A DNA stretch of 64,000 nt. Source: Mycobacteriaceae bacterium (GTDB lineage Bacteria; Pseudomonadota; Gammaproteobacteria; Burkholderiales; Burkholderiaceae_D). Of the stretch, positions 1 to 13,986 are shown in pieces (positions within the stretch are counted from its first letter, which is position 1; each line of letters begins with the position of its first letter). The position numbers and the translations under genes are program-made. The notes beneath the pieces are model-generated. The model did not search any database, was not told the DNA's origin, and saw only the letters and a program-made list of their open reading frames with translations. The DNA is taken from the NCBI GenBank assembly GCA_903970145.1, contig CAJCHO010000060.1, forward strand, positions 1 to 64,000, given 5' to 3'.

Positions 1-27
1 GGCGACGCAGTCCTCTGCTTCGGTTAA
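1..27 (+). CDS. Double-glycine-leader peptide, 3' end of a copy (partial)
   Basis: Only the last eight codons and the TAA stop are inside the window. They encode GDAVLCFG, identical at the DNA level to the same codons in the next two copies. The gene starts upstream of base 1. It shows that the array continues to the left. Confidence 0.7.
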   Translation, partial: GDAVLCFG

Positions 28-55
28 TTCACCCCAACACACCCAGGAGTTGAAC

Positions 56-187
56 ATGGAACAGTTCGTCATCGAATCCGCTGAAGTCCTCGAAGTTGTT
101 ACTGAACAATCGCCTGCTGTTACTGAACTCTCGCTCTCCGAGCTCGCTTATGTCGGCGGCGGCGACGCAGTCCTCTGCTTCGGTTAA
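56..187 (+). CDS. Double-glycine-leader peptide, array copy 1
   Basis: A 43-residue peptide starting MEQFVIESAEVLEV and ending GGGDAVLCFG. The start ATG lies six bases after an AGGAG ribosome binding site. The N-terminal 24 residues are acidic and hydrophobic, with no signal peptide or membrane segment. Residues 25-36 (LSLSELAYVGGG) match the double-glycine leader consensus of C39-peptidase/ABC exporters: L at -12, S at -11, E at -8, L at -7, V at -4, G at -2 and -1, if the cut follows G36. That would release DAVLCFG, with one cysteine at residue 41. No maturation or export gene is in the window. Function unknown; a secreted or modified short peptide (signal, bacteriocin-like or RiPP product) is inference. 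The gene is below the length cutoff of most gene callers. Confidence 0.8.
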   Translation: MEQFVIESAEVLEVVTEQSPAVTELSLSELAYVGGGDAVLCFG

Positions 188-215
188 TTCACCCCAACAC
201 ACCCAGGAGTTGAAC

Positions 216-347
216 ATGGAACAGTTCGTCATCGAATCCGCTGAAGTCCTCGAAGTTGCACCCGAACAATCGGCTGCTGTTACTGAGCTCTCGCTCTCCG
301 AACTCGCCTATGTCGGCGGCGGCGACGCAGTCCTCTGCTTCGGTTAA
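216..347 (+). CDS. Double-glycine-leader peptide, array copy 2
   Basis: A 43-residue paralogue of the preceding peptide, 160 bp downstream, with the same spacer and the same AGGAG site six bases before the ATG. It differs from copy 1 only at residues 15, 16 and 20 (V to A, T to P, P to A). Four further base changes are silent or neighbouring. Residues 21-43, including the LSLSELAYVGGG processing region and the DAVLCFG tail, are identical. Silent changes in the conserved half alongside replacements in the variable half suggest protein-level constraint on the C-terminal half. Product unknown; see copy 1 for the leader argument. Confidence 0.8.
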   Translation: MEQFVIESAEVLEVAPEQSAAVTELSLSELAYVGGGDAVLCFG

Positions 348-376
348 TTCACCCCAACACGCCCAGGAAAATGAAC

Positions 377-508
377 ATGGAACAGTTCGTCAACGAATCC
401 GCTGAAGCCCTCGAAGTCGCACCCGAACAATCGCCTGCTGTTACTGAACTCTCGCTCTCCGAACTCGCCTATGTCGGCGGCGGCGATGCAGTCCTCTGCT
501 TCGGTTGA
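377..508 (+). CDS. Double-glycine-leader peptide, array copy 3 (last)
   Basis: The last 43-residue copy, starting MEQFVNESAEALEV. It differs from copy 2 at residues 6, 11 and 20, and carries a silent GAC-to-GAT change in the tail, yet still encodes GGGDAVLCFG. The ribosome binding site is altered to AGGAAA and an in-frame ATG appears six bases earlier (371-373), so initiation could be at 371 or 377; 377 is chosen by homology with the other copies. The stop is TGA instead of TAA. A hairpin follows at 517-538 and the next gene, metZ, is convergent. Confidence 0.78.
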   Translation: MEQFVNESAEALEVAPEQSPAVTELSLSELAYVGGGDAVLCFG

Positions 509-594: not shown

Positions 595-1788
595 CTAGGC
601 CGTGGCAAGTCCGCGTGCCAGGTCCGTTTGCAGATCCTTCACGTCTTCGAGTCCCACAGCGACCCTCAGTAGTCCCTCCCCGATTCCTGCTGCCTGCCTT
701 GCCTCCGGCGTTACTCTGACGTGCGTTGTCGTTGCCGGATGGGTGATGGTAGAGCGTGTGTCCCCAAGATTAGCGGTGATCGAGATCACTCGACAGTGAT
801 CTATCAGATGCCACGCGCGTGCGCGCCTGCCGGCGTCATCCGAGGCATCCAACTCGAAGCTCAGTACCGCTCCACCACTATTTTGCTGGCGCCGCGCCAG
901 ATCAAATTGCGGATGTGACGCGAGCCCGGGGTAGTGCACGCGCGCGACACCCTTCTGGGACTCCAGCCAACGTGCAATCGCGAGCGCATTCTCCGACTGC
1001 CTCTCCATCCGGATCGACAGAGTCTCAAGTCCCTTGAGCAGCACCCAGGCGTTGAATGGCGAAAGGGACGGCCCGGTGGTACGCAGGATGGGCGCAATGC
1101 GCTCCTGAATGAACTGTTCAGATCCAAGTATTGCCCCTCCAAGCACCCGGCCCTGGCCATCGATGTACTTGGTTGCCGAGTGAATGACTACATCCGCACC
1201 GTGCTCGAAGGGCTTTTGCAGCGCCGGAGTACAAAAGCAATTGTCGACGACGAGCAGGACACCTGCCTGCTGCGCGACCGCTTTGAGTGCCTCGATGTCG
1301 GCCAGCTCGGTGAGCGGATTGGACGGCGTCTCGACATAAAATAGCTTGGTGTTGGGTCGTACCGCTGCGGCCCACTCCTGGACATTGGCGCCACTGACGT
1401 AGCTCGTGGTGATGCCAAAGCGCGCCAGCACGGTATTGAACAACTGCACGGTCGCGCCAAAGATACTGTGGGACGAGACGATGTGATCGCCGGCAGCGAG
1501 AGTACCGAGACAACACGACAGGATCGCACTCATTCCCGAGGCGGTCGCCAGGCAGGCTTCGGCTCCCTCGAGTGCCGCCAGGCGTTGCTGGAACATCGCA
1601 ACCGTCGGATTCGAGAAGCGCGAGTAGGTGTAGCCCTCCCCCGTCGCCTGGAAGCGCTGTGCCGCCTGTGCGGCGTTCTCGAATACAAAACTCGATGTCA
1701 GGAACAGGGCCTCGGAATGCTCTGAGAACTGCGAGCGCAGCGTCCCCGACCGGATGGCGAGGGTGTCAAAATGGAGGTCATCGCTCAT
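595..1788 (-). CDS. metZ: O-succinylhomoserine sulfhydrylase
   Basis: PLP enzyme of the Cys/Met metabolism family that makes homocysteine from O-succinylhomoserine and sulfide in direct-sulfhydrylation methionine synthesis. The 397-residue protein from MSDDLHFDT has the expected length. YSRFSNPT at 55-62, VVDN around D182 and the PLP lysine in SATKYIDG (K207) are present. The open frame extends 26 codons upstream to another ATG at 1866, but that stretch contains a terminator-type hairpin and lacks family similarity, so the ATG at 1788 is preferred. metZ downstream of the purF region is usual in betaproteobacteria. A leader with competing hairpins suggests methionine- or sulfur-responsive control. 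cysM is at the other end of the window. Confidence 0.95.
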   Translation of the reverse strand: MSDDLHFDTLAIRSGTLRSQFSEHSEALFLTSSFVFENAAQAAQRFQATGEGYTYSRFSNPTVAMFQQRLAALEGAEACLATASGMSAILSCCLGTLAAGDHIVSSHSIFGATVQLFNTVLARFGITTSYVSGANVQEWAAAVRPNTKLFYVETPSNPLTELADIEALKAVAQQAGVLLVVDNCFCTPALQKPFEHGADVVIHSATKYIDGQGRVLGGAILGSEQFIQERIAPILRTTGPSLSPFNAWVLLKGLETLSIRMERQSENALAIARWLESQKGVARVHYPGLASHPQFDLARRQQNSGGAVLSFELDASDDAGRRARAWHLIDHCRVISITANLGDTRSTITHPATTTHVRVTPEARQAAGIGEGLLRVAVGLEDVKDLQTDLARGLATA

Positions 1789-1802
1789 GGCAAATCCGCA
1801 AT

Positions 1803-1837
1803 AAAAAACCCGCTCTGCCGGGAAGCTAAAGCGGGTT
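1803..1837 (-). terminator. Intrinsic terminator (attenuator) in the metZ leader
   Basis: On the minus strand, arms AACCCGCT and AGCGGGTT (1830-1837 and 1807-1814) form a perfect 8-bp stem with a 15-base loop, followed by a run of T (1803-1808). It ends 15 bases before the metZ start codon. A terminator placed between promoter and gene is the hallmark of transcription attenuation. Confidence 0.7.
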
Positions 1838-1861
1838 GCGATGATCTGCAGCGACTTTAGC
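1825..1861 (-). promoter_or_regulatory. Candidate antiterminator of the metZ leader switch
   Basis: GCTAAAG (1855-1861 read on the minus strand) is perfectly complementary to CTTTAGC (1825-1831). Pairing these would occupy bases that belong to the 5' arm and loop of the metZ terminator hairpin, so the two structures exclude each other. The trigger is unknown: a SAM-type riboswitch, an RNA-binding protein or translation of a leader peptide are possible. I could not match it to a known SAM riboswitch consensus by eye. Confidence 0.5.
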
Positions 1862-1908
1862 GGCATTTTTAAAGCGCCCGCAAGCGGTACAAATCGGCGC
1901 TGGTAATC

Positions 1909-6306: not shown

Positions 6307-7347
6307 TCATGGCGTCACGAGGATGCCGTCAAGACTCATGCTCTTGACGCGCGCAATCGCCTTTTGCGCGTCGTCCCGAGACTTGAACGGGCCGATGCGC
6401 ACTCGCGTTCGCACTCCCTGGGTCGTTTCCAGTTCCTCGGTATAAGTCTTGAACCCGGCACCGCTAAGACGCTCGAGCAACTCCTTGACCTTATCGGCAT
6501 TGGCGAACACGCCAATCTGGACCGCGAAAGTTCCGCTGGCAGGCCCAAGCTTGCCGGTCTTGGCCGCAGGGCTTGTCGCCGCCGGGCCAGACGCCGGAGT
6601 TGCCGCAGCCGTCTGCGGCGCCGCGTCGGGAACGCGTCCCTCGAGCGCCGCGACGGCGCGGGGATCGTCCACGCGTGCCGGCTTCTCAGCAACAGCGATC
6701 TTTTCGCCGGCAGATTTGTCGGCGGTCTTGGCTGTTGCCGTCTTGCTGGTAATCGTGTTGTCGGACGCAGGCTTGGCAGGAGTGGCGGGGGCGCCAACGG
6801 CAGGCCCCGGAACGGGCGCCGCCTTGGGAGGCGCAAGGGATGGGCTAGCGACAGGCCCTGGAATCGGCGCCGCAGCAGCAGGAAGCGTTGCGCTGGCGGA
6901 CTTGTCGTCCGACTTCAGAGGAGCAGCAGCCGCATTTACCCCAGCGTCGGCGCGCGGTCCACCGGTCGATGGGCTCTCGGCGGATGGATTTGCAGGAGCA
7001 AGCGGTGGTGGCGGTGCCAGCGCACCCGGAACCAGGGAATTGGCGCCGGCAGCCGGCTTGGTCAGCGGTTTGGCACCTACAAACGGGGTGTCCTTGTCCG
7101 GCAGTACGACCGTCATGTCTTCTCCGGCAGACGGCGGCTCGGAGTCGATGACCATCGGTAAAACGATCACGGCCGCCAGCGCCAGCGCAATCGCACCGAC
7201 GACTCGGCGACGCGCACGCTTGCGCAACAGGACGGCGGGGTCTAGCGGATCAGGGTCATCTTCGAGCAGCGGCCGACGTGCGCGGGACGGCCGGGAAGGT
7301 CGGGTCGTTGCCTCAGATTGGTCTTGCTTCTTCGAAAAAAGACCCAT
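6307..7347 (-). CDS. SPOR-domain cell-division/peptidoglycan-binding protein
   Basis: A 346-residue DedD-like protein. A basic cytoplasmic start (MGLFSKKQDQ) is followed by one membrane span near 48-66, a long Ala/Pro-rich periplasmic linker to about residue 255, and a C-terminal SPOR domain (FAVQIGVFANADKVKELLERL, ending RVKSMSLDGILVTP). SPOR domains bind denuded glycan strands at the septum. A TTG five codons upstream is in frame, but the ATG at 7347 is preferred. It starts 19 bases after the folC stop. The order folC-SPOR-cvpA-purF is conserved in proteobacteria. The low-complexity linker is normal for the family. Confidence 0.92.
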   Translation of the reverse strand: MGLFSKKQDQSEATTRPSRPSRARRPLLEDDPDPLDPAVLLRKRARRRVVGAIALALAAVIVLPMVIDSEPPSAGEDMTVVLPDKDTPFVGAKPLTKPAAGANSLVPGALAPPPPLAPANPSAESPSTGGPRADAGVNAAAAPLKSDDKSASATLPAAAAPIPGPVASPSLAPPKAAPVPGPAVGAPATPAKPASDNTITSKTATAKTADKSAGEKIAVAEKPARVDDPRAVAALEGRVPDAAPQTAAATPASGPAATSPAAKTGKLGPASGTFAVQIGVFANADKVKELLERLSGAGFKTYTEELETTQGVRTRVRIGPFKSRDDAQKAIARVKSMSLDGILVTP

Positions 7348-13029: not shown

Positions 13030-13986
13030 ATGGCGGCCTTGCCGACCTATGATGATGTAATCGCGGCGGCGCAGCGCCTGGCCGGCCACGCGCATCGCAC
13101 TCCGGTGATGACTTCACGGATCGCCGACCAGGAGTGCGGCGCCTCTGTTTTTTTCAAGTGCGAGAATTTTCAGCGCACCGGCTCGTTCAAGTTTCGTGGT
13201 GCCTTCAATGCCTTGTCGCAGTTCGACGCCAGACAACGGGTGGCGGGCGTGGTGGCATTCTCTTCGGGCAACCACGCCCAGGCCATCGCGCTGTCTGCCC
13301 GCATTCTCGATATCCCGGCAACGATCGTCATGCCCCATGACTCACCGGCCCCCAAGCTGGCAGCAAGCCGTGAATATGGGGCCGAGGTGCTTATCTATGA
13401 TCGCTACAGCGAAGATCGGGAGGCCATTGGCGCCCGCCTTGCGCGCGAGCGTGGCATGACCCTCATCCCGCCCTATGATCACCCGCATGTGGTCGCCGGC
13501 CAGGGAACCGCTGCTATGGAAATGCTTGAGGAGACGGGGCCGCTCGACGCATTGTTTGCGCCCCTTGGCGGTGGCGGCCTTTTGAGTGGTACCGCGCTGG
13601 CGGCAGGCGCCCTATCACCGGGTACCAGGATTTTTGGTGTCGAACCCGAAGCCGGCAACGACGGGCAGCGCTCCTTGCGCAGCGGCGCAATAGTACACAT
13701 TGACACGCCAACGACCATCGCCGATGGCGTGCAGACCCAGCATCTGGGCGTGATCCCCTTCGAGATCCTGCGACAACGGGTGACGGACGTCATGACGGTG
13801 ACTGACGCCGAGCTTATTGAGTGCATGAAGTTTTTTGCGAGCCGCATGAAGATCTTCGTCGAGCCGACCGGCTGCCTCGGTCTTGCCGCTGCACGGGACT
13901 ATGCCCGCACCCACCCCGGCCAGCGCATCGGGGTGGTAATCAGCGGCGGCAATGCCGACTTCGCCCATCTGCTCAAGCAGGCTTGA
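13030..13986 (+). CDS. Threonine/hydroxyaspartate dehydratase family PLP enzyme
   Basis: 318-residue fold-type II PLP enzyme. The PLP lysine is K54 in GSFKFRGA, the substrate/cofactor loop SSGNHAQA is at 78-85, and the phosphate-binding GGGGLLSG at 180-187. It lacks the C-terminal regulatory ACT domain of biosynthetic IlvA, so it fits catabolic threonine dehydratase, serine racemase or threo-3-hydroxyaspartate ammonia-lyase. Which of these is not decidable here. It is probably transcribed with the acyl-CoA ligase. Convergent with the symporter gene. Confidence 0.85.
   Translation: MAALPTYDDVIAAAQRLAGHAHRTPVMTSRIADQECGASVFFKCENFQRTGSFKFRGAFNALSQFDARQRVAGVVAFSSGNHAQAIALSARILDIPATIVMPHDSPAPKLAASREYGAEVLIYDRYSEDREAIGARLARERGMTLIPPYDHPHVVAGQGTAAMEMLEETGPLDALFAPLGGGGLLSGTALAAGALSPGTRIFGVEPEAGNDGQRSLRSGAIVHIDTPTTIADGVQTQHLGVIPFEILRQRVTDVMTVTDAELIECMKFFASRMKIFVEPTGCLGLAAARDYARTHPGQRIGVVISGGNADFAHLLKQA

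Follow-up and report, generated by a model that had tools for sequence, protein, structure and literature searches.

The left edge of the DNA stretch analysed here, a window of 64,000 nucleotides, cuts through a tandem array of genes for very small peptides. The locus raises the question of what these peptides do, and through which partner they act. Tandem Repeats Finder places the array at window positions 1-506, with a period of 160, 3.2 copies, 94% matches and a score of 898; it lists just one further repeat in these 64 kb, at 13823-13866 (period 21, two copies, low score). Positions 1-508 hold the end of the array, which is composed of one cut unit and three full 160-bp units, arranged as follows.

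1..26, + strand: 3' part of a peptide unit truncated at the contig end, comprising the last bases of the GGG stretch, the DAVLCFG core and the stop
45..49, + strand: ribosome-binding site AGGAG of unit 1
56..187, + strand: peptide precursor of unit 1, 43 aa, core DAVLCFG after ...LAYVGGG
205..209, + strand: ribosome-binding site AGGAG of unit 2
216..347, + strand: peptide precursor of unit 2, 43 aa, core DAVLCFG
365..370, + strand: ribosome-binding site AGGAAA of unit 3
377..508, + strand: peptide precursor of unit 3, 43 aa, core DAVLCFG; alternative in-frame ATG start at 371
595..1866, - strand: Cys/Met metabolism PLP enzyme (Pfam PF01053), a flanking gene outside the system, which we take to be MetZ-like

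An earlier reading of the sequence alone (the sequence-only reading) had described at least four units of about 160 bp, each encoding a 43-residue peptide with its own ribosome-binding site. The repeat search and the sequence bear out this design; the count stands at three full units and one cut unit, not four full ones within the window. Each full unit ends in ...VGGGDAVLCFG. The leader, E-L-S-L-S-E-L-A-Y-V-G-G-G, agrees with the C39-type double-glycine consensus LSxxELxxVxGG, which is matched by ELSLSELAYVGGG with the third glycine at position -1, as the sequence-only reading had proposed. Cleavage at this predicted site, after the third glycine, would release the core peptide DAVLCFG. Searches of the peptide units against Pfam and NCBIfam returned no match in either, and membership of a known peptide family was rejected on that ground.

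The missing half of the locus

The first base of the window is also the first base of its contig, C60. A pattern search of the same genome found one further copy of the peptide on another contig, C130, where a protein search found four units, one of them cut; the end of C130 also falls within a peptide unit. Two of the C130 units carry the core DVFVDMA in an otherwise identical design. The identical tails had been read as more dose of one product, but the array encodes two products. Counting the units beyond the window edge, the array comprises at least seven (two DVFVDMA and five DAVLCFG) if the two cut units are parts of a single unit and the contigs represent one haplotype; the assembly breaks inside the array.

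Outward from the array, C130 carries the two DVFVDMA units, a divergent gene combining TPR and HD-GYP parts, a C39-ABC transporter and an HlyD protein. The TPR-HD-GYP protein, below called the receptor for its putative role, is 618 aa long, is encoded divergently and matches Pfam TPR_12 at 1.4e-13. The transporter (703 aa) has an N-terminal C39 peptidase (Peptidase_C39, 9.4e-34), whose catalytic Cys, His and Asp align with those of the solved exporter 8vp3. The HlyD protein has 416 aa. The sequence-only reading had pointed to the left of base 1 for a C39-peptidase ABC transporter with an HlyD-type protein, or a RiPP-modifying enzyme. The transporter and HlyD adjoin the array on C130 and in relatives; no RiPP-type enzyme was found among the ORFs between exporter, receptor and array of the window genome, most of the other fetched loci likewise have none there, and a YcaO-domain gene occurs in one relative, G050.

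We infer that C130 and C60 are neighbours because loci of two relatives link the flank to the module. The MetZ-like gene, receptor, array, exporter and HlyD gene of G035 all lie on one contig, and the exporter of G008 lies about 1.3 kb from the MetZ-like gene, which is thus a conserved tie between C60 and C130. At the far end of C130, an ORF that gives the impression of a recombinase from its sequence runs off the contig (L006:9747-10670). Tiny tandem genes at contig ends break assemblies and can hide a system of this kind.

Putative peptide-receptor pairs in relatives

A search of 148 genomes for the peptide, as the sequence-only reading had suggested, matched four, including the window genome; a TPR-HD-GYP gene adjoins the peptides in the other three (G050, G010 and G034). 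Part of the G050 array lies on a second contig, which carries the MetZ-like flank, the sole unit seen in G010 is cut, and the array and receptor of G034 are together, with the exporter on another contig. Receptor searches and reading of the flanks uncovered paralogous TPR-HD-GYP genes with peptides of their own, whose cores include MGSVVFDD, DSTAFNLY, TTSISF, AITNTL, YMAADY, YCAADY, QLLTPY and TAVVDY. The core is 6-8 residues long in most units.

The pairing was scored with an automatic rule, written after many of the scored loci had been seen: an ORF with a ribosome-binding site, ending in [VILA]GGG plus 4-14 residues, at most 1.5 kb from the receptor. Over the 64-kb window, the array is the only match. 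Set 1 consists of 22 receptors from eight genomes that match the TPR model A4 at E 3.3e-40 or better; the model was built partly from these receptors, several of which are its rows, and four receptors were first reached through the peptide search. G008 accounts for six matches to A4, two of them cut. The rule finds a GGG peptide at 17 of the 22 set-1 receptors, and at 15 of 18 without the four reached through peptides. Among the misses, L026 and L027 have a peptide that runs to the contig end, and the receptor gene of L067 is itself cut by a contig end. No peptide is found near L139 (3899-5890) and L140 (6235-4295), the most divergent receptors of the set (E 1.3e-42 and 3.3e-40), the former with HDIGE in place of HDIGK; these two are possible orphan receptors.

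Set 2 comprises 24 of 27 order-level rows, leaving out the window genome's own row and two cut rows of G565. The rule finds a peptide at 14 of these 24 receptors, two of the positives sharing one array (G109). Three misses are second receptors of loci whose array lies past the first receptor, two have short ORFs (one with a peptide about 1.9 kb off), one has an AAGG-type candidate only, and four have none. Another set of receptor loci gave peptides at 13 of 33, seven of them new places; many of its peptide-less loci are second receptors or have only one flank.

Applied to control loci, the same rule found nothing at 14 loci of other TPR proteins (137,729 bases) and nothing at 22 HD-GYP loci without TPR (77,297 bases, with flanks reaching only 1.5 kb from the HD match). 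The HD-GYP loci were 26 at first; four were receptor loci, one of them the single match, and were removed. Seven loci around exporters of 47-50% identity, from genomes lacking a known receptor, gave no peptide, and none lies within 1.5 kb of the exporters of G008, G049 and G073. A looser rule, GG[GA], gave two matches among the 14 TPR control loci.

Several further arrangements were seen around the receptors. A TPR-HD-GYP gene outside all counts (L187:3944-5563) has a divergent peptide at 3613-3470 with the core SGIYLF. At three loci (L177, L178 and L180) a single array adjoins a tandem pair of TPR-HD-GYP genes, of which the second may be a decoy, a partner or a further output for the same signal. 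Members of one subgroup (L179, L181, L190 and L195) have HDIGL, HDIGM or similar together with HHAxWDGxGYP motifs, and their GGG peptide, where found, lies on the far side of the gene and has a core with Trp and Pro (DSTPNW, DFEPEWP, DAGPNWP). The sequence AAAAGGGAACTTTT stands directly before two receptor starts (L088, about 796-811; L089, about 6935-6950), and ACTTTTC lies upstream of some peptide starts (L066, L070, L028); this could be a shared operator.

The same four parts occur in relatives from at least three families, and all carriers found come from one order. The TPR model matched 14 of 399 genomes of the order at E 1e-20, from four families, the window genome included. Six set-2 loci hold an exporter of about 66% identity with HlyD, and three loci of family f38 have an exporter of 46-48% with HlyD, with a peptide in only one. 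Model A5, which includes members of family f22, matched 24 of the 28 f22 genomes at E 1e-30. The same model at E 1e-25 matched only the window genome among 369 genomes drawn from the class, and members outside the order were accordingly set aside as a candidate. Plasmid-borne relatives of the G441 receptor were sought in 72,556 records, with none at E 1e-60, and phage-borne, arbitrium-like relatives were sought in viral contigs with one alignment, with none found. The matches of a genome-contig search, 13 loci of genomes already among these carriers, belong to five uncultured assemblies: four bear the label Betaproteobacteria or Burkholderiales, and the fifth, with two loci, Rhodospirillales. 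Array carriers on a single contig are G109, G441 and G536, which may be isolates.

Of the 294 genomes of the family, 86 encode a C39 exporter with an E value of at most 1e-180. Exporters of at least 71% identity occur in eight, the same eight in which receptors were found, the next best reaching 50%; exporters and receptors were scored on the best few candidates per genome, and the absence of receptors in the other 286 is therefore not exhaustive. The match between exporter and receptor is one of co-occurrence, not of independent gain, as the eight carriers may be related lineages.

Constraint on the core and predicted structure of the putative receptor

The cores are under purifying selection within arrays, and the upstream leader is near neutral. 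Pooled pairwise pN/pS over 44 units in 15 arrays is 0.12 in the core; in the 12-codon stretch that closes with GGG it is 0.19, and in the preceding 12 codons 0.77. This count splits the window genome's array by core and omits the L073 pair with differing cores, two G034 units (of five) and one G536 unit (of four). An inclusive count of 53 units in 17 groups, which sets the two cores of the window genome's array against each other and is still without two G034 units, gives 0.23, 0.24 and 0.76, the core and its preceding motif being equally conserved. Within-array pairs are not independent in either count. The contrast between 0.12-0.23 (core) or 0.19-0.24 (motif) and 0.76-0.77 indicates constraint on the core and the GGG motif, and none on the remaining leader. 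A dN/dS near 1 across copies, named beforehand as evidence against a functional array, is absent from the core in both counts. The four full DAVLCFG units differ in their core codons by six synonymous and no non-synonymous changes over six pairs. Three units of G668:C3 differ strongly in their leaders and share the core QAVMVFL; summed over the three pairs, their core codons show 13 synonymous differences and no non-synonymous one.

The HD-GYP half of the receptor aligns to 4mcw (E 7.8e-46) and keeps the HD and HHxxxDGxGYP motifs; in many relatives the D of the GYP motif is replaced by N, and HDIGL or HDIGM occurs in one subgroup. By sequence, the protein is likely a c-di-GMP phosphodiesterase. 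The other complete set-1 receptors have about 618-729 aa, with L074 set aside for a false N-terminal extension. Two relatives, L066 and L079, have no Pfam TPR match at E 0.01, and their solenoid is assigned from alignment and model. The structure was predicted for the relative L088 (mean pLDDT 71, pTM 0.58). The model contains a helical solenoid, with ten-residue blocks scoring 81-95 over residues 11 to 330; its HD-GYP half is poorly predicted. The four Foldseek matches at E 0.001 or better are 4mcw, twice, through HD-GYP, and two LGN chains. Lower matches include MalT domain III (TMt 0.66), NprR with NprX (4gpk, rank 31, TMt 0.64) and Rap of phi3T (8rtc, rank 38, TMt 0.58), the E values of NprR and Rap being 0.007-0.009; LGN and MalT match the predicted TPR fold as well as or better than NprR and Rap do.

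The TPR half changes faster than the catalytic half: across ten close receptor pairs, the fraction of differing sites is 0.57 in the first 110 residues versus 0.09 in the HD half, which could reflect relaxed constraint. Different species often have different cores, and so do receptors whose HD domains are nearly identical. The cores can be wholly different at an HD distance of 0.06 (DAVNGY vs CLVNCV), or one residue apart at 0.07 (YMAADY vs YCAADY). In a comparison of 33 receptors, each with a single core, core distance is associated with TPR distance once HD distance is accounted for (partial Mantel 0.142, P 0.013), a modest signal among rows that share ancestry, and is not associated with HD distance once TPR distance is accounted for (0.039, P 0.28). 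A bias of TPR change towards the groove was rejected, since the putative groove-side helices in the ten close pairs are not more variable (A 0.276, B 0.329, P 0.11).

A proposed signalling module and its alternatives

We propose, at a probability of about 0.58, that the array is the signal part of an exported short-pheromone module with a TPR receptor, a c-di-GMP phosphodiesterase output and an RRNPP-like logic. Its starting points, namely the anatomy, co-location and conservation of the parts, the selection on the core and the kept C39 and HD-GYP motifs, are direct observations. Each unit would yield a precursor of about 43 aa, which the C39 domain of the adjacent ABC exporter would cut after GGG. 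The exporter, HlyD and a presumed outer-membrane channel would release the 6-8-residue core, in the window genome DAVLCFG together with DVFVDMA from the two distal units, and multiple copies would raise the output. The core would re-enter the cell, perhaps through porins and then an oligopeptide permease, and bind the TPR domain of the divergently encoded protein. Binding would alter the phosphodiesterase activity, and population density or kin identity would thereby set c-di-GMP. The TPR-HD-GYP protein is likely the receptor for the array peptides. We put at even odds the broader claim that C39-exported peptides of 6-8 residues re-enter the cytoplasm and directly switch a TPR-fused phosphodiesterase, each genome having several separate channels and the signals being specific to the species, across several families of a single betaproteobacterial order. 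Several order-level receptors, as well as L139 and L140, have no nearby peptide, which speaks against the proposal, as do the YcaO gene at the G050 locus, the equal conservation of core and preceding motif in the inclusive count, the LGN and MalT fold matches and the lack of extra change in the putative groove-side helices.

The sequence-only reading had left the choice between a secreted signal, a bacteriocin-like product and a modified peptide, of which a signal is favoured. Class II microcins and bacteriocins are exported with a double-glycine leader, a C39 exporter and HlyD, all of which are present here, with several copies to give dose; the cores might thus inhibit neighbours, with the TPR-HD-GYP protein merely regulating production. 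We consider this rather unlikely, as cores of mostly 6-8 residues are far below the size of class II microcins, no immunity-like gene was noticed in reading the loci, 10 of the 17 peptide-bearing set-1 loci have a single copy, and several paralogous receptors of one genome each have their own peptide. An enzyme-processed core acting as a metabolite, toxin or modified signal is quite improbable. It would draw on the Cys, Ser or Thr of some cores and on a gene between exporter and receptor of G050 (L026:5005-6267, - strand, 420 aa), whose product matches the YcaO domain PF02624 (E 1.2e-6, 28.5 bits against a cut-off of 25.7); the YcaO family modifies RiPPs. Yet the protein has no NCBIfam match, tblastn with it over 233 loci matched only four overlapping fetches of G050:C171, the corresponding place in the congener G010 has no YcaO gene, the G050 core NGIMLFI contains neither Cys nor Ser nor Thr, and Pfam searches of ten further flanking ORFs at six loci revealed no RiPP enzyme. 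The YcaO gene could modify the peptide in G050 or belong to something else.

The signal might also never leave the cell. The receptor could bind the unexported precursor, by leader or core, and so report exporter activity, which would fit the lack of a noticed transmembrane part in the receptor and the conservation of the motif before the core within arrays (pN/pS 0.19 and 0.24). Such internal feedback is unlikely, considering that the exporter is unlinked in G034, that cores often differ between close receptors and that core distance tracks TPR distance. Finally, the linkage could be real while the peptide acts elsewhere, the TPR-HD-GYP gene being kept by shared history. Carriers from a single order and order-level receptors without a peptide are compatible with this, but paralogous receptor-peptide pairs at separate places in one genome are hard to explain so, and we regard it as very improbable. 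An exported signal read by the TPR-HD-GYP protein is the reading compared with known systems below.

The proposed module resembles the RRNPP systems of Firmicutes (Rap, Rgg, NprR, PlcR, PrgX), which share a small propeptide gene beside a TPR protein, a short core and several paralogous pairs per genome; the predicted TPR fold resembles that of NprR-NprX, among other TPR proteins. The propeptide gene lies within 1.5 kb of the receptor at the 17/22 and 14/24 loci given above, and TPR repeats are present in the receptor. The host here is, however, a betaproteobacterium, the output domain is HD-GYP and the peptides are often in tandem arrays. The accessible part of a survey that scanned only Firmicutes and viruses lists receptors of 250-500 aa and export by Sec or PptAB (PMC10075063), in contrast to 618 aa and, as predicted from sequence, a GGG leader with a C39 exporter here. 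As for cytoplasmic binding of a re-imported peptide, the window genome has four oligopeptide-binding (SBP_bac_5) proteins, which are supportive. Because receptor length and export route depart from those listed, we do not file the system as RRNPP; it is RRNPP-like in logic and a novel variant of peptide signalling.

The leader consensus, the C39-ABC exporter (8vp3 and ComA 8hf4 are among its matches) and HlyD recall ComA/ComC-type systems and class II microcins. The usual partner of double-glycine peptides is a histidine kinase or an immunity protein, whereas here it is a TPR-HD-GYP protein, and the core has only 6-8 residues in most units. Gram-negative GG-motif peptides or peptidase-containing exporters act in biofilm control in Synechococcus (PMC4997328) and cell differentiation through HetC in Nostoc (PMC10986499), as given in the accessible parts of these papers, which concern another phylum and mention no TPR-HD-GYP partner. 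The catalytic domain is like that of HD-GYP phosphodiesterases (4mcw, 4r8z) by sequence and fold, but its N-terminal part is a long TPR solenoid, where others seen had response-regulator or CHASE2 parts. The density signal of Azoarcus BH72, from the accessible part of PMC3262810, was dropped as a candidate, the best C39 match named there having an E value of only 0.51. Among the open-access papers listed in literature searches, none showed an account of the combination of peptide, C39 exporter and TPR-HD-GYP protein, and this recurring Gram-negative gene cluster has the look of a peptide signalling system not described before.

According to the accessible part of PMC10075063, Proteobacteria typically use small molecules for quorum sensing, and RRNPP systems belong to Firmicutes and their mobile elements. 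If the proposal is true, Gram-negative bacteria would gain a genetically encoded, easily diversified signal for decisions on biofilm or motility, and an HD-GYP phosphodiesterase would have a defined input. Since the genome sequence spells out each core, candidate ligands can be made synthetically and compared on their own and on foreign receptors.
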